Positions 1 through 6,923 of a DNA stretch of 6,923 nucleotides are shown here, one piece after another. The position numbers were made by a program, and so were the translations under genes. Every line of letters begins with the position of its first letter. The stretch's first letter is position 1. Under the pieces are notes generated by a model. That model was not told the origin of the DNA. It did no database searches and was given only the letters and a program-made list of their open reading frames with translations. The stretch lies in contig JAFGJF010000466.1 in NCBI GenBank assembly GCA_016929205.1, forward strand, positions 1 through 6,923. The letters are read 5' to 3'. Source of the DNA: Anaerolineae bacterium (GTDB lineage: Bacteria; Chloroflexota; Anaerolineae; JAFGEY01).

Positions 1-3000
1 ATGAGGCCGTCGGCGGCGATTTCTACACCGTCACAATCCGTAACGACAGCGCGACCACGGCCGCGCTTAACCCCTATATCGAGGTGCATCTTCCTCCATT
101 GGGATTTGACTTTGTTGGTGACCTCGGCTTGACAGATGTCGCCAGCGGCACAGTTCCCTACACTGTCACCGATGCCGGCGCGACGGTGACCTGGACGCTG
201 CCCAGCACCTACAGTCTGGCCCCGGGACACCAACTGATCCTGGTTTTCAAACTATCAACTACCGACGGCACCGACTCAGGACAGCGGCTGGACGTGGATT
301 TTGTCTACGAGAATCCGCCCGGTGACGTCGAAAGGCTCAACGCCGGCGAAAACGTCGAAGTTGGGCGCGGCAACCTCGTGATCAGGAAAACGCCCAAGGT
401 GCAAACCGGCACCTATGGCGACGTGGTAGCCTGGGACGTTTTGATCGCCAACACCGGTTTGGGGACCGTGTATTCGGCGACCTTGTCCGACGTTGCCGGT
501 ATAGGTTACACCGATGTCGATATCAGCGAATTGATGGTTCCGGCTTTTCACATCACCGTTGGCGGGCAACACAACTTTGTCGTAACGGCAACAATCAACT
601 CGTGTACCAACCTGACCAATACCGCCCTCTCCTGGTGGAGTATCGGCAACGAAGATGGCACCGGATCGAGTGCGACGCCGGTGGAGGATGTGGTCGACGT
701 GGCCTACATGCTGGACATTCCCGACATTTCGATCGCCAGCAATGACGTGACCTTTGACTATTGCGCCCAGACGCCGGAAAGGGTAGCCCTGACAATCACC
801 AACGCGGCCGGCGCCGGCCCGGCGCTGAATTTCGAACTGAGCAGCGCGCAGCTCGGCGGCTTGCCCTTTGCGGTGGACAATGTGCCGGCCAGTTGGTTCT
901 ACGATGGAAGCGGCACCTTTACCACCAGCCAGGCGATTATGCCCGGACAGCAGGTGACGTTGGCTTTTATGCTCACGCCCGATGCAGTCGTGTGTGGCGT
1001 AGAGACGGATGGATCGTTCACCCTGGACAGCGCGTTTACCGATCCTTGCGATTTCCCGTATCGTGGCCCTTCTACCGTTATCAACTATAGCTACGATTCC
1101 GAGAACAGCCCGTCGCTGTCCATCGACAAGAACTTTTCTATAGACGCTGCTGGGACCATCGTGTTCACCGTCGATCTCGACGCCCGGAATGTCGAGAGCA
1201 TCAGCGGCACGATCGTCATCACCGACGACGTCTCTTCCTTTTTTGCCATCGACAGCACTGCCGCCACGGCAGGCAGCATTGCGCCAATGGGAAACACACT
1301 GGTCTGGTCCATCCCTTCGGGCGCTGGGCCGGGCGATTTGACCGGCACCATGTCGATCACGGTGACGGATGTGGGCAATCATTCCACATGTGGCCCGAAT
1401 GACTATACCAATGTCGCGCATGGGTACGCCGACGTCACCTGCCCGACCTGCGACCCGCCGCTGAGTGCCAGCAGCGCCACGGTCGACGTCGGCCCGGAAT
1501 TGAGGGAACCGGACCTCAGCTTTGAGATCAACACGATCCAGTTCGATTACTGTGCCGTGACCCAGACGCAGACGATCGTCATCACCGTCACTAATGCCAT
1601 GACGGCCGATCCGGCCTACGGCCTCGTGTTGAATATGATACAGACCGAAGAAGAAGAGATACCCGACTGGATACAGCCTTATCCCGATTCGCCGCTCTAT
1701 CCTGCTCGGATAATGGTGGATGTCGATCAGGTCAGCAGTGAATGGATCTATAGTCTGGCTGGCGAACGCTTTACCTATATCGGAAACGGTGGGGTTATTT
1801 TTCCGGGGCAACAAATCACGCTTTCATTTGTCGTGACCCCGAGCCACATATGCGGCAATTCACGGCACTGGCAGGCTATTTTTAACGCCGAGTATGAAGA
1901 TGCTTGCGGTGAGGAGTATATTGGGGATATCGATACCATCGTTCCCTTTACCGAGACCAATATGCCCCGTTTTGGTATGGAAAAGACCAATACAGCGCCG
2001 GGCGGCGCGATCGATACGGGCGATGTGTTTAATTTCTTGATCGATTTTGAGACACTCAATGCCCACAGGATGACCAACACGATTCGCATTGAAGATGTTG
2101 TTCCCGGCGTCTTTGAGATCTTGGCCTATGCTGGAGAGGTCATTTCGTCACCAAGCTCTGTGCTTTACTCGATCACTGGCACCAACGTGATCACGCCGGG
2201 AGGGATTGTCACCTCCACGATCGTCACCTCGGCCGTTGGCCTGGATACCCGGCTCGTTTGGGAAATACCGATCACGCCCTCATTGATGCCCTATGACCTC
2301 ACCGGCCGCCTGACGATCACGGTGCGCGTGCTTGACGTCTCGGCCGACTGTGGTGCCCACAGTGTATACGACAACACCGCATATGGTCAGGCCGGGGATG
2401 GCTGCGCCGGCTGCACGGGATTGGGTGCCCAAGCTGCCACGACTGTGCGCGTACTGCCGCCGACCGGAGATCCGGCAGAAGCGTCGCCCAAATCGGCCAT
2501 TTCGGACGGTCAGGTTTGTGGCACATTGGTGGTGAGCAATACCTATGCCAGGGTCTTTATCAGCGATTGGAGCAGCGTAACCTTTACCGAAACCTTGGGC
2601 AGCACGGCTGCGCCACCCATTCCTGCCGGGACGCTGAACTATGAGGTGGGCAGTTTGGTCGTCTCGATCGATGGCACAGACAGAACTGCACAAACGGCCA
2701 TTGTGCAGGCCGCCCCCCAATTGATCCTCGATTTTGACAGCATTGCGTCGCCCACAGGCACGCATAACATCAGCATCATTTACACGCTCTACGTCGACAA
2801 TGACATCCTGTCCGGCAATCCTGTGTTCACATCCAGCACAACTTCCGAATTCGAGGTTCTCAACGTCGCTTCGCAGGGATCGTGTGGTTCGGGTGACAAT
2901 TACAATTTTGAGCAAACTGCGTCCATTTCCATCCAGCGCGCCGATTTGCAGATCGACATCTCGCCCGACAACTTTGTCGGCTGCGCGCCCACCTGGGTCA

Positions 3001-6000
3001 CACTCACCGTTTCCGATCCCGATCTGGTCTCAAATAACCTGGTCGCCAACAATATCGTGGTCACACTCAACATCGCTTCGCCCGAGTTTGAGGGCATCGA
3101 TCTCTCTGCCGTGAGTTATGGCGGTGGCTTTACCGGCAACCCGGTCACGGTCATCAGCGCCGACAATACGATCACCTGGACCTTTGCCAACCCGCTCACC
3201 GCGACCAACAGCACGACCGGCACGATTGGCTTTACCATGACCCGCAGTTGTAACCCCGCCAATCTGCGCGCCGGGGTACGCTTTGAAAACCGCTGTGTCG
3301 TGGTCTATAGCCATACCGACAATAACAATGAGGTGGTCGAAAGTCCCGAGATCCGCCTGTTTGTCACCCCGGACCATTACAACATTGCCGAAAACCGGGT
3401 CTACTGGCACGTCTACGCCTTTAACACCGGCGATGGCATAGCCGGGCAGTTTGTGATCACCAACTTGTTAGGTACAGGATTGGCCCTCTACACCTATACC
3501 ACCACCCTCGCCGACCAGGTCGATTTGCTGACCAGCGCGCCCTTTACCGGCGGCAAGGACGTTGTCTGGCAGGTGTCAAACCTCGCTCCGGGCCAGGTGG
3601 TTCATATGGTCATCACTGCGACCACGGTGAGTTGCGCCGACACAACCAGCGTCGTCCAGGTCGATTCCGGCTGCCTGGACGGGAGTGCGTGCCCCGGATT
3701 CTACCAGGACGAGGTCATCTTTGGCCAACTGCCGGTGGCTGTACGGTCCGAAAACGACCAGACCGCCGACCTGCCGCTGTGCGAAACGGGGGTCGTCATC
3801 CTGAGAGTCAAAAACGCGGCTCTCGAATCGCACATCTATAACATGGTCGTGACCGAAACGATTACCTCAATGGGCTACGTTGCCGGTACGGCGGCGATCA
3901 CGATCGAGGACCGGTTCGGCAACCCTATTCCCGCTTTGAGTAACATTCCCTTTGAACCACGGCTGACCGTCAGTTCGTCGTTGACGACGACGATGCTCTA
4001 TTGGGGCGTGGACATCGCACTGTTTCCAACGCAAACAAACCTGTTGCAGGATCGCGGGCCCGAAGAAACCATTGTCATCGAATACATGGTACAAACCGAC
4101 TGTGAGACACCCGGCGAAAACCGGGTGCAGGCCACGGCCGGTGGGGACAAGGCATGTGGCGACTTTTTCCTGCGGCTCGAAAGCGCGGAAACATTGGACA
4201 CCATCGAGCCCGATATCACCCTGACCAAGGATGGGCTCAACAGCACCCAGGGCGACACGGCCTATGCCAATACCGTGTACGGCGGGCCCGGCGACGTCAT
4301 CGTCTGGCGTGTTACTGCCGAGAACGCGATTGGGGCCTATGTGGCCCAAAATGTAGTCGTCAGCGACGTTCTATCAGCCGATCTGGCGTACAGTTCAACC
4401 CTCGTCACCATGGGCACGGTGGGTTACGTTGTCCCCACGCGCGCGGTTTCCTGGACGATCGGCAATTTGCCGGCCGATGGCATCGATCACTATATGTACA
4501 TTACCAACGTTCTGACCACCGGCATTGACTGCCGGATCAATACGACCAACACGGCCGAGCTGTCCTACGGCTGTGATGATGGCTGCCGGGTTGAACCACC
4601 CGAACGCGCCCTGGCCTACATCGTCAAGCAGCCCGAGTTGGGTCTCGTCGTGCCGGGCAGCACCAACATGAACGTCTGCGGCGGCGACTTGACCATTATT
4701 ATCGAGAACGAGAACGGCCCTGATGCCTATAACGTTGTGCTGACCGATACCCTGCCCATGGGCTATGAATACGTATTCGGCGTGGCCCCTGGATCGGTTA
4801 TTTCACCTGCCACCGGGGCAACGGTTCTGACCTGGACGTGGAACATCCTGCCCCAGGGCACGACGGTGATCACCTTTTCGATCCGCCAGACCGCCACCGA
4901 CGGCATCTGTGCTATCGCGCCGACCGGATCCAACGTCGTCCACATCTCGTACGAGGACCATCCGGGCTGCCTCGTGCCGATCACGCATACCGAAATAACG
5001 ACCTCGACGATTAACTTTGACCAGCCGGATATTCAAATCAGCAAACTGCCCGATTTCCAGGTCGACGCGGTTGGCGAGGTGGTCACCTGGACGGTCACCG
5101 TGACCAACACGGGAACGGGCGAGGCGCGCTGGGTCGTCGTCACCGATACCGCCGGCAGCCAGTTCCTCAGCCTGACCCACCTTGGCAACACCAGTAGCGC
5201 GACGGCCAACTTGAGCGGCACCAACGTCATCACCTGGGACCTGGGCACGCTGCCCACCGGCGCGACGTGGGTGGTGACGCTGACCGCCGTGCTGACCGAA
5301 AGCGGCCACAACGAAAACCTGGCCGAGGTGTCCAGCCACTGTGGCACAGGATGCCAAACGGTGGATGCCGATAACGACGCCTTTGTCAGTTTGTTGAACG
5401 ACTTTGCCAAGACCCCCGAGGTGCAAACGGGCACCATCGGCAGCCTGGTGGTCTTTGAGATTGAAGCCGCGCTGTCGGACGCCAACGGAGCATACGAGGG
5501 CATTGTCGTCACCGATGCCCTGCCGGTTGGTCTGGGCTACGTTTCTGCCGTGCTGACCTACGTCGTGGATGTGGATGGCGCAGATGGCGGACCAACACAA
5601 ACGGTCGTTGTCCCGAGCAACACTCCTGGTCTGTATGACTCGGGCAACATTGTCTGGGCGTTGGGCGTTAGCGAACCAGGTGTCGTTCAGATCAATGGTA
5701 CGATCACGGCTGTCATCCAGGCCATCGATTCGAATCAACATGGCATCAGCCGGACCAACGAAATCAGCATGACCTATGTGCAAGACGGTTACAGCTATAA
5801 CTTTACCGATACAGCGGACATCAAACTTGTCGAGCCGCTGCTGCACATCGGCAAGTCGTATGTAACCGAGTCTGGGTGTGAGGCACTGTTGCATCAGGCC
5901 AACTTTAACGTCAGCCCGGATGGATGGACAACGTCTGCAAGCATTGTCCGCGATGCAACACAGGGTGTGCTCCACTTTACTGGCAGCGATACCAGCACCA

Positions 6001-6923
6001 ACAACCAAGTGGACGACGCCTCTGATTTCAGCTTGAGCTTTATGGCCAAGCACAATGCAGATAACAACGGCCGGTTGAACGTCGATTTCAGGATGCAAGA
6101 TGGCAACAACCGTTACATGTTCTGGATCTATCCGGATGGTAATCTGAGCCTGATTCGAAGAGCAGGAGGAAGCAATAACACACTGGATAGTGCTACACTG
6201 CCCCGTCCGCTGGCCTGGCACCACTACGAGATCCGCGCCGAAGGCCCGCACCTGCGCATCTATGTCGACGGCCAACTCGCCCTGGAAGCCACCAACGACA
6301 CCTTTGGCAGGGGGTCCATCGAGTTCCGGGGCTCGAACAACATCGATATGGTCTTGGATGACGTGCTCGTCACCAGGCTCAATCAGACGGGATGCTTCGT
6401 CGGGGCCAATGATCTGGTCACCTATACCCTCGTCGTCTCGAATCACACCCAGGCCATTGGCTACGATCTGGTGATCACCGACGTGCTGCCCGCCGGGATG
6501 ACGTTACGTGATTACACATTGACCAGTGACGATCCGCTCACCTTGGTGATCACAGAACCATCGCCGATTCCCGGCGCGACAGGGGTCTTGACCTGGGGCA
6601 TCAACCAGTTGGTCCCGGGGTCGCCCTATGTGCCCACGACCCACAATGCGCTCACCTTGACCGTTGTGCTCAGCGTGGTCGACCACATCACGGCAAACAT
6701 TGTCCTGGCCAACCAGGCCTCTCTGATCTACGATAACTGGAGCGGCAATTCCCAGCCGACGACCATCACCCGTGACTATGGCGGCGGTTCGCACTCGACT
6801 GCGGTCCGTACGGTCGACGGCGGGATTCGCAAGCGCGAGCAGTTCAGCCCGCCTTCGACGGCGACGTTGGGCACCCTGGTCACTTATACGCTGATCGTGC
6901 CTGCCCAACCAATCTCGGCGACG
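1..6923 (+). CDS. Giant DUF11-repeat surface protein, internal fragment (both ends outside window)
   Basis: One open frame covers the window: bases 1-2 finish a codon, the first full codon is at 3, and 2,307 codons follow without a stop. No start, signal peptide, membrane segment, sorting signal or stop is visible, so the full protein is longer. The content is about 16 tandem beta-sandwich domains of the DUF11/TIGR01451 family, recognised by repeated strand motifs such as TWTVTVTNTGTG (about residues 1693-1704), VVLTDTLP (1579-1586) and a central W strand in most domains (W64, W435, W753, W1059, W1189, W1334, W1484, W1611, W1745, W1885, W2198). A LamG-like domain is nested at residues 1961-2126. 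Composition (Thr/Val/Asp/Asn-rich, 34 Cys, only 17 Lys) fits a secreted, extracellular rod. From family knowledge such proteins serve as adhesins, surface layers or stalk/scaffold proteins; the exact role here is inferred and unknown. The frame is intact, with no sign of frameshift or decay. Confidence 0.95.
3..371 (+). repeat. DUF11-like domain D1 (N-terminally cut by window)
   Basis: Residues 1-123. It starts inside strand B (YTVTIRNDSA) and runs through the central W strand (TVTWTLP, W64) and an L-APG turn to a last strand ending near DFVYENPPGD. It has no Cys. Its N-terminal strand lies upstream of the window, so whether it is K-type or C-type cannot be told. Confidence 0.75.
372..716 (+). 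repeat. DUF11-like domain D2, K-type
   Basis: Residues 124-238. It opens NLVIRKTPKVQTGTYGD with the first-strand Lys at K129, then VVAWDVLIANTGLG, the best DUF11 consensus match in this part. The last strand is introduced by N206 (NTALSW). The single Cys, C201, has no partner within the domain. The nearest free Cys is C254 at the start of D3. Confidence 0.82.
717..1106 (+). repeat. DUF11-like domain D3, C-type
   Basis: Residues 239-368. Its first strand lacks Lys and it carries the C-type mark FDYCAQT (C254) just before strand B (VALTITNAAG). A PGQQVTL turn (P314-L320) leads to C331-G and, 18 residues on, C349, which bracket the last strand. It is clearly paralogous to D5. It contains no Lys at all. 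Confidence 0.78.
1107..1502 (+). repeat. DUF11-like domain D4, K-type
   Basis: Residues 369-500. The first strand is LSIDKNFSIDAAG with K376, strand B is TIVFTVDLDARN, and GTIVITDDV takes the usual VTD-LP place. The central strand is LVWSIP (W435). The C-terminal strand starts at N470 (NVAHGYAD) between C463 and C480; an extra C483 follows just before the D5 junction. Confidence 0.8.
1503..1961 (+). repeat. DUF11-like domain D5, C-type with acidic loop insertion
   Basis: Residues 501-653. It opens PDLSFEINTIQFDYC (C517), then TIVITVTNAMTADPAYG, close to D3. A loop around residues 548-568 begins with four Glu (EEEEIPDW) and is rich in Pro and Tyr; it makes D5 about 20 residues longer than D3. 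PGQQITL (601-607) matches PGQQVTL in D3. C617 and C635 bracket the last strand. Confidence 0.78.
1962..2456 (+). repeat. DUF11-like domain D6, K-type, long
   Basis: Residues 654-818. The first strand is FGMEKTNTAPGG with K661, then GDVFNFLIDF, IRIEDVVPG in the VTD-LP place, and the central LVWEIP (W753). N791 (NTAYGQAG) starts the last strand between C783 and C801. A further C804 lies just before D7. The loop between the LP strand and the W strand is longer than usual (about residues 705-748). Confidence 0.77.
2457..2939 (+). repeat. DUF11-like domain D7, C-type, divergent
   Basis: Residues 819-979. The C-type mark is C839 before strand B (GTLVVSNTYARV). The central W is replaced (LILDFDSI), so the fold assignment rests on spacing and flanking domains. 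It has one late Cys, C961, with no second Cys after the last strand. It is followed directly by another C-type domain, breaking the alternation. Confidence 0.65.
2940..3344 (+). repeat. DUF11-like domain D8, C-type
   Basis: Residues 980-1114. The first strand DLQIDISPDN has Asp where K-type domains have Lys. C994 precedes strand B (TWVTLTVSDP), followed by NNIVVTLNI and the central strand TITWTF (W1059). C1083 and C1098 bracket the last strand. It has no Lys. Confidence 0.74.
3345..3731 (+). repeat. DUF11-like domain D9, K-type layout with Val replacing the Lys
   Basis: Residues 1115-1243. PEIRLFVTPDHYNIAENR lines up with PDIQISKLPDFQVDAVGE of D13 and puts V1121 where K1681 sits. Strand B is VYWHVYAFNTGDG, and VVWQVSNLAPGQ holds the central W1189. 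Three late cysteines (C1211, C1224, C1230) follow the K-type pattern of an extra Cys before the next C-type domain. Confidence 0.74.
3732..4208 (+). repeat. DUF11-like domain D10, C-type
   Basis: Residues 1244-1402. PLCETGVVILRVKNAALES carries the C-type C1260 directly before strand B, then YNMVVTETI. The central strand is LYWGVD (W1334). C1367 and C1385, 18 residues apart, bracket a last strand starting at N1373 (NRVQATA). Confidence 0.75.
4209..4631 (+). repeat. DUF11-like domain D11, K-type
   Basis: Residues 1403-1543. PDITLTKDGLN holds K1409. GDVIVWRVTAENAIG is strand B, VVVSDVLSADL the VTD strand and AVSWTIGNLP (W1484) the central strand. NTAELSYG (N1516) is the last strand between C1510 and C1524; an extra C1528 precedes the D12 junction. 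Confidence 0.83.
4632..5024 (+). repeat. DUF11-like domain D12, C-type
   Basis: Residues 1544-1674. PELGLVVPGS has no Lys. C1559 sits just before strand B (DLTIIIENENGPDA), then YNVVLTDTLPMGYEYV, an almost exact DUF11 consensus. LTWTWNILPQG (W1611) is the central strand and turn. C1636 and C1656 bracket the last strand (NVVHISYED). Confidence 0.85.
5025..5390 (+). repeat. DUF11-like domain D13, K-type, closest to consensus
   Basis: Residues 1675-1796. PDIQISKLPDF holds K1681. GEVVTWTVTVTNTGTGEA, VVVTDTAG, VITWDLGTLPTGATW (W1745) and NLAEVS (N1772) give the full DUF11 pattern, and this is the best single domain for a profile search. The late Cys pair is compressed to C1780/C1784 (HCGTGC), unlike the 13-20 residue spacing elsewhere. 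Confidence 0.9.
5391..5834 (+). repeat. DUF11-like domain D14, K-type, no cysteine
   Basis: Residues 1797-1944. FAKTPEVQTGTIG (K1803) is nearly the same as the start of D2. IVVTDALPVGLGYV is consensus, NIVWALG (W1885) is central, and NEISMTYV (N1919) is the last strand. An Asp/Gly-rich loop (DVDGADGG, about 1857-1864) follows the LP strand. It has no Cys and directly follows another K-type domain. Confidence 0.84.
5835..6815 (+). repeat. DUF11-like domain D15, split by a nested LamG-like domain
   Basis: Residues 1945-2271. The first strand PLLHIGKSYVTES carries K1951 and C1959. A 166-residue foreign domain follows, then the DUF11 fold resumes at TGCFVGANDLVTYTLVVSN (C2131), VITDVLPAGM, LTWGINQLVPG (W2198) and NQASLIYD (N2237). 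D15 has both a Lys and a pre-strand-B Cys, so it is a hybrid of the two subtypes. It lacks the late Cys pair. Confidence 0.82.
5883..6380 (+). other. Nested concanavalin A-like (LamG / DUF1080-like) jelly-roll domain
   Basis: Residues 1961-2126. The order of motifs fits the LamG/3-keto-disaccharide-hydrolase-like (DUF1080) jelly-roll superfamily: an N-terminal F-x(6)-W (F1968, W1975), a FSLSFMAKH strand, NRYMFWIYPDGNLSL (Y2038), a WHHYEIRAEG strand (W2072-H2073), LRIYVDGQLALE with the typical V-D-G turn (D2089-G2090), GSIEFRGSNN and a closing D-D-V-x-V (D2119-D2120). No catalytic residues can be assigned. In large surface proteins such domains usually bind glycans or protein ligands. The binding role is inferred from the family, not seen. 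The first half uses somewhat more A/T-ending codons than the flanks. Confidence 0.78.
6816..6923 (+). repeat. DUF11-like domain D16, K-type, cut by window end
   Basis: Residues 2272-2307. GGIRKREQFSPPSTATLG carries a first-strand Lys (K2277) and LVTYTLIVPAQ is strand B of a new repeat. The rest lies beyond the window, showing that the repeat array continues downstream. Confidence 0.75.

Follow-up and report, generated by a model that had tools for sequence, protein, structure and literature searches.

The present locus raises the question of how the cysteines of a giant repetitive protein are bonded. The window, i.e. the whole analysed stretch of 6,923 nucleotides (contig JAFGJF010000466.1 of the Anaerolineae assembly GCA_016929205.1), is covered by one frame that is open at both ends with neither start nor stop (2,307 aa; residue n corresponds to bases 3n to 3n+2 of the window) and contains 34 cysteines. 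An earlier note on this DNA had paired each of them with its next neighbour. All of its Cys positions are exact on recount and its spacings are right (nine neighbours 13–20 residues apart, six neighbours across junctions, one C-x3-C and one pair bracketing an inserted domain). Its argument that no cysteine remains unpaired has no force: with a frame truncated on either side, the window does not give the Cys count of the full gene, and an even count arises half the time. Here, we suggest that the cysteines of this putative surface-fibre protein probably bolt neighbouring domains together and are not joined in consecutive pairs.

The frame and its relatives

In a Pfam scan seven stretches of the frame match DUF11 (PF01345, CLIPPER) with 117.4 bits against a cut-off of 24.6, and the window is 44–49% identical to P0002, a homologue of 3,121 aa. 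Judged by sequence, the window encodes the N-terminal region of a giant protein but neither its start nor the C-terminal array. P0002 was the one homologue returned by a search drawn from residues 230–1000. No relative came out of a first scan of genomes that used just the window, nor out of a viral scan; searches of PDB sequences gave no match at E up to 10 with domain D13 and merely weak levanase matches, to the insert, with the whole window. Starting from P0002, 84 proteins were collected (including P0002 and the window's own), most of them collinear with P0002 over some 1,500–1,980 residues. Their named sources are Chloroflexota or Anaerolineae-type, except for P0078 from Candidatus Brocadiae. 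There is one match in each of 13 genomes reached through the loci, and among 396 genomes of the class 55 have a match, 53 of them once. By homology, the frame belongs to a large Chloroflexota protein family with mostly one copy per genome.

One homologue deserves attention. The protein of genome G176 (locus L107; 6.0 Mb) comprises 6,596 aa from its sole listed start, an ATG, and shows 26 Cys in the core order (counted by hand). It is collinear with window residues 5–654 and 856–1953 at 30–31% identity; the window differs in being partial, and the alignment stops at its residue 1953, before the insert, corresponding to G176 residue 1,912. Archaellin was detected in G176 as one of nine genomes tested. 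PMC13319060 describes the grappling hook-like protein A (GhlA, WP_141610714.1) as the hook-forming protein of Litorilinea aerophila, an organism with an archaellum, and gives it 6,596 aa and 49 DUF11 domains. Both the identical length and the archaellin fit the G176 protein being GhlA or its twin. By its description in the same source GhpA of Aureispira, also a giant hook protein, is comparable. The main text of PMC13319060 has no occurrence of "disulf".

Some further features of the giants lie outside the window. The C-terminal DUF11 array of L107 (residues 2415–6431) contains 60 further Cys in close pairs, 5–13 residues apart, and such close pairs map elsewhere to domain positions 53–69. LPxWF motifs are repeated near the N-terminus of P0002 (residues 40–90) and also in L008, L010 and L018. 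P0002 and the giants in L008, L009, L010, L018, L107 and L108 share a C-terminus marked by an LP-x-V/I motif with an Arg close by.

Table 1. Features of the window, with residue numbers in brackets, and of related loci. "Balanced" gives the homologues with equal Cys numbers on both sides of a junction.
Feature	Position	Strand	Basis or count
Coding frame, N-terminal part of giant DUF11/CLIPPER protein	3..6923	+	2,307 codons, no in-frame stop
D2 (121-240), isopeptide-type; Cys201 in EF loop	363..722	+	AF2 secondary structure
D3 (240-367), Cys-type; Cys254 just ahead of strand B, Cys331 EF loop, Cys349 FG hairpin	720..1103	+	AF2 secondary structure, conservation
D4 (368-500), isopeptide-type; Cys463 EF loop, Cys480/483 FG hairpin	1104..1502	+	AF2 secondary structure, conservation
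D5-D6 two-domain unit (501-826); Cys517, 617, 635 / 783, 801, 804	1503..2480	+	alignment to P0002; D6 from AF2 model, D5 outside models
D7 (827-978); Cys839 ahead of strand B, Cys961 ahead of last strand	2481..2936	+	AF2 secondary structure
D8-D10 (979-1400); Cys994, 1083, 1098 / 1211, 1224, 1230 / 1260, 1367, 1385	2937..4202	+	AF2 model, conservation
D11-D13 (1402-1798); Cys1510, 1524, 1528 / 1559, 1636, 1656 / 1780, 1784	4206..5396	+	conservation; D13 outside AF2 models
D14-D15 (1799-2273), isopeptide-type, without staple Cys; D15 hosts inserted domain	5397..6821	+	triad conservation
Concanavalin/laminin-G-like insert (1972-2101)	5916..6305	+	Laminin_G_3 E 1.2e-8 at 1998-2098
Cys1959 and Cys2131, pair bracketing insert	5877..6395	+	co-occurrence with insert
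D2/D3, proposed single staple Cys201-Cys349	603..1049	+	balanced 70/70
D3/D4, four-Cys junction, Cys254, 331 with Cys480, 483	762..1451	+	balanced 64/70; one Cys each side in P0078
D4/D5, proposed single staple Cys463-Cys635	1389..1907	+	analogy inside duplicated unit; balance read in window only
D5/D6, four-Cys junction, Cys517, 617 with Cys801, 804	1551..2414	+	analogy inside duplicated unit
D6/D7, proposed single staple Cys783-Cys961	2349..2885	+	balanced 63/71; both kept in P0078/P0085
D7/D8, proposed single staple Cys839-Cys1098	2517..3296	+	balanced 70/71; both absent in P0078/P0085
D8/D9, four-Cys junction, Cys994, 1083 with Cys1224, 1230	2982..3692	+	balanced 65/72
D9/D10, proposed single staple Cys1211-Cys1385	3633..4157	+	balanced 72/72
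D10/D11, four-Cys junction, Cys1260, 1367 with Cys1524, 1528	3780..4586	+	balanced 70/72
D11/D12, proposed single staple Cys1510-Cys1656	4530..4970	+	balanced 74/74
D12/D13, four-Cys junction, Cys1559, 1636 with Cys1780, 1784	4677..5354	+	balanced 73/74
TGA codon in second thioredoxin-like motif	L002:8974-8976, L018:8640-8642, L014:9259-9261; also L049, L051, L053, L057, L058, L076

Cysteine sites in the DUF11 fold

Domains of two types follow each other in the N-terminal module (Table 1). The Lys-Asp-Asn isopeptide triad is present and conserved in D2 (in aligned homologues K129 68/72, D163 70/72, N206 68/72), D4, D11, D13 and D14, and the Cys-type domains are without the Lys; in D14–D15 the conserved residues are K1803 (74/75), D1838, N1919 and K1951 (74/74 each). 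A CxxC or CxnC occurs in D4, D6, D9, D11 and D13. The unit D5–D6 is duplicated in the window relative to P0002, where it is single, and splits the alignments of P0001 and P0007. Growth of the module in steps of two domains can thus occur with the Cys counts staying balanced. The same unit is apparently also duplicated in P0007/L001 and L018.

The cysteines are the most conserved residues of this module. The alignment comprises 76 homologues (8 of the 84 proteins were omitted). In window columns occupied by 60 or more of them, conservation reaches 95% or more in 25 of 27 Cys columns versus 61 of 1,431 columns of other residues (sums by hand), a pattern far beyond chance; the D5–D6 Cys are outside this count because just two rows include the unit. 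Positions 961, 994, 1083, 1211, 1224, 1230 and 1260 are Cys in all 74 rows, and the exceptions below 95% are 839 and 1959. The expectation of the earlier note that the two cysteines of a junction are gained and lost together receives a neutral answer at position 839, which is Cys in 48 of 73 rows versus 73 of 73 in its proposed partner column, 24 further rows having the Cys two residues earlier. As control served 805 DUF11-like domains outside the core module, taken from loci found by DUF11 search and from the C-terminal arrays of the family. Their pre-B, EF and FG sites hold 26 of 544 Cys, a count made on domains found with an isopeptide-type profile that could miss Cys-type ones; most control Cys lie at domain positions 53–69. 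The junction cysteines are in contrast typical of the N-terminal module.

The position of these sites in the fold can be read from covariation within 1,617 DUF11-like domains (effective number 1,066), which recovers the isopeptide triad (D42–N99 rank 1, K8–D42 rank 3, K8–N99 rank 10) and the antiparallel strand pairs B–E, D–E, C–F and A–B. These pairs point to an Ig-like strand order, and because of them the strand before the EF-class Cys is taken as E and the CxnC is placed in the FG hairpin. In this predicted topology the C-terminal end of a domain carries the pre-B and EF sites and its N-terminal end the FG-hairpin Cys (CxnC or a single later Cys). Secondary structure in two AF2 models (mean pLDDT 84.7 and 83.6) agrees with it for D2–D4 and D6–D12, and from the modelled strand order Cys961 of D7 is read as a member of the FG-hairpin class. 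The window's DUF11 domains conform to a CnaA-like beta-sandwich. They share with the solved CLIPPER domain 9IFR the Pfam match, the conserved Lys-Asp-Asn triad and a CxxC in the last-strand region, and differ, at 14% identity, from Gram-positive pilins such as BcpA (3kpt) and SpaD (4hsq). Among the titles and abstracts listed on DUF11 and disulfides, on Chloroflexi DUF11, on Anaerolineae surface proteins and on interdomain disulfides of Ig-like proteins and adhesins, mainly from freely readable papers, none deals with staples of this kind. By description, two known cases are comparable, namely the Cys-rich DUF11 surface protein OmcB of Chlamydia and the disulfide between Ig domains of Siglec.

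Possible pairing of the cysteines across and within domains

For each junction the pre-B and EF Cys of domain n were combined with the FG Cys of domain n+1, both the Cys classes and the junction sets being defined after the data had been seen. The counts do not include P0001 and P0007, which have the duplicated unit; for the window a reading by hand was added. In 74 homologues 664 of the 690 junctions have equal Cys numbers on both sides, mostly as (0,0), (1,1) or (2,2), and the window, by that reading, is balanced at all of its 14 junctions from D1/D2 to D14/D15. The other 26 junctions are unbalanced, a few rows differing by two, (1,3) and (2,4). Grouping by physical junction leaves 667 of 690 sets even, grouping according to the earlier note 640 of 786. 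Grouping of Cys within domains was rejected with just 277 of 764 sets even.

Four pairs of extra cysteines straddle junctions in an all-or-none manner (rows with both/first only/second only/neither): D1 EF with D2 FG (44/0/0/17), D1 pre-B with D2 FG (15/0/0/29), D7 EF with D8 FG (42/0/0/32) and D6 EF with the start of D7 (41/0/0/32). These pairs changed just once or twice on the tree, extra Cys in general 1–3 times. Six of their eight columns (88, 376, 682, 1049, 1456, 1670) covary almost perfectly with each other, so that among these six the assignment of partners by junction is a choice. Other extra Cys do not straddle: columns 1159/1389 lie within D7 (34/1/1/37), and of columns 618/673/681/1488 (6 rows) three fall into D4 and the fourth into D7.

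The divergent lineage of P0078 (22% identity to P0002 at 87% query coverage) and P0085 (81% identical to P0078) is informative as well. Both proteins are without 839 and 1098, retain 783 and 961, and miss one Cys on each side of D3/D4; every junction set still closes (by hand). In P0068 the EF Cys of D4 is absent and its proposed D7 partner is kept; two junctions are broken there.

From these data we suggest the following arrangement. The fibre would be a row of Ig-like DUF11/CLIPPER domains, its N-terminal part encoded by the window, in which a Cys of the AB or EF loop, at the C-terminal end of one domain, would pair with an FG-hairpin Cys at the N-terminal end of the next. One staple each would be present at six junctions (201–349, 463–635, 783–961, 839–1098, 1211–1385, 1510–1656), either two staples or two local bonds each at five four-Cys junctions, and 1959–2131 would close the base of the inserted laminin-G-like domain. 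To this whole reading, a surface fibre of the GhlA family from an Anaerolineae-like bacterium with D2–D13 locked by junction disulfides, we assign a probability of roughly 0.6. The proposal of the earlier note that disulfide staples connect neighbouring DUF11 domains is thereby retained, with staples at the same six junctions and with partners other than its consecutive pairs.

A variant contained in this reading would staple the six two-Cys junctions only and let the four-Cys sets bond inside their domains, pre-B with EF and CxnC with itself. It is possible, though we would not expect it. In the domain 9IFR a CTTC of the last strand is closed by a local disulfide (PMC12617251), covariation 15–88 (rank 12 of 7,626) couples the pre-B site to the point where strand E ends in the same domain, the CxnC spacing varies as in a hairpin, and the few rows with (1,3) and (2,4) fit too. 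On the other hand, local bonds gained or lost separately would produce (0,2) and (2,0) junctions, and among 690 none of the former and one of the latter was found, the single case probably being P0078 with two Cys missed by the alignment. The straddling extra pairs and the losses in P0078 likewise put one Cys on each side of a junction.

Weighing against staples, inter-domain covariation is weak and dominated by repeat artefacts, with no AB–FG or EF–FG contacts among the enriched groups listed (4 of the top 150 pairs are AB–BC). Foldseek with a 1,011-residue model gave multi-domain matches that are uninformative on bonds, and most in-domain Cys pairs are compatible with a strict chain-length bound. 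A crude bound of this kind excludes in-domain EF–FG bonds clearly for one and marginally for another of eight modelled domains. Isolated two-Cys clusters were dropped as partly an artefact of a 110-residue cut-off.

Consecutive pairing, with nine pairs inside domains around the last strand and six crossing to the pre-B site of the next domain, appears improbable to us. In its favour, all of its sets in the window are even too (by hand), the EF and FG sites covary at 3.5 sd (94–107), D4 of P0078/P0085 keeps exactly one EF and one FG Cys, and some covarying Cys pairs are sequence neighbours (1159/1389 in D7, 3059/3064 in the insert and the insert bracket). Against it, 146 of its 786 sets among homologues are odd versus 23 of 690 for the junction grouping, it strands Cys 124 and 795 in both P0078 and P0085 (by hand), and it mismatches the four all-or-none pairs that straddle junctions. 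Moreover its in-domain partners flank strand F, 7–11 residues long, in 8 of the 9 pairs that were modelled, and in the inferred topology the pre-B site of the next domain is located at that domain's distant end.

There is similarly little probability that the bonds connect chains, copies lying side by side and being cross-linked as in the reported three-stranded hook stem. PMC13319060 reports probable C3 symmetry for a GhlA stem piece; the piece fitted there (residues 2,347–2,945) is located beyond the part matching the window, which ends at G176 residue 1,912. Inter-chain bonds are compatible with all data presented here, but the agreement of Cys counts across junctions is seen inside a single chain. 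Metal binding, for which CxxC motifs are known in general, or reduced Cys without structural role can be considered very improbable in view of the upstream thioredoxin-like gene and the all-or-none Cys pairs.

The insert, gene neighbours and the proposed fibre

The pair 1959/2131, which the earlier note already saw as bracketing the inserted domain, is well supported by its distribution in aligned sequences. All 46 rows that have the insert show Cys1959 (two of them, P0032 and P0048, stop within it) and none of the 27 that lack the insert does, three rows being too short; Cys2131 is present in all 44 rows that reach it. Insert and Cys1959 changed 10 times each on the tree (sign test 0.008), and the insert and its two bracketing cysteines may move together as a single cassette. 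A 3keto-disac_hyd match at 1972–2101 is below its cut-off. Inside the insert, columns 3059/3064 hold a further Cys pair (10 rows with both, none with one, 34 with neither; three concordant changes).

In 21 of 33 genomes with enough sequence a thioredoxin-like gene is located on the same strand within about 600 bases upstream of the giant; the other 12 have none. In this count the contig shared by L059 and L011 was used once and L070 and L015–L017 were not included; L015–L017 match just the window's C-terminal part, and L016 has no thioredoxin-like gene in 5.9 kb upstream. Since only 9–17 PF00578 matches, the upstream gene included, occur in each of six genomes, such adjacency by chance would be rare. 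The encoded proteins, whose export was judged by eye, usually have WCPxC, with L057 and L058 lacking a CxxC in the frames listed. A SurA_N-type match was found in 6 of 10 proteins scanned (L008, L009, L052, L065, L054, L014; four above cut-off) and not in those of L002, L018, L049 and L051. At nine loci the second thioredoxin motif contains an in-frame TGA (Table 1) in place of the first Cys of the CGSC seen at six others, and this codon probably represents selenocysteine. A tRNA-Sec match of at least 61 bits is present in 8 of the 9 genomes with TGA (not in G167) and does not separate the two groups because 10 of 12 other genomes tested have it too. We infer a role of the adjoining thioredoxin-like gene in folding.

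Downstream of the giant, a C25 (gingipain-type) peptidase gene follows in five of six loci with at least 5 kb of sequence (L004, L007, L008, L009, L013), and a sortase gene in four of these six and in L002 (L002:23909-24661). The order of a stapled module and then a variable DUF11 array, the signal-like N-terminus of P0002 (by eye), the end of the L002 giant in LPETG and a membrane segment, and the nearby sortase genes suggest a fibre anchored at its C-terminus. The stapled module would then be outermost and perhaps be the hook itself. As a tentative extension, which we rate as rather doubtful, sixteen disulfides, one or two per junction, would lock the eleven junctions from D2/D3 to D12/D13 and make the conserved N-terminal module a rigid hook-fibre head of fixed curvature, served by a dedicated thioredoxin-like chaperone that apparently uses selenocysteine in some species.

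If the reading of stapled junctions is true, these proteins would represent a class of giant bacterial surface fibres that combine isopeptide bonds inside domains with disulfides between them. By counting the Cys on each side of junctions in homologues, such staples would then be readable from sequence. There would be a testable reason for the stiffness and shape of the recently reported Chloroflexota hook filaments, together with a defined list of bonds to search for and a candidate dedicated folding enzyme.
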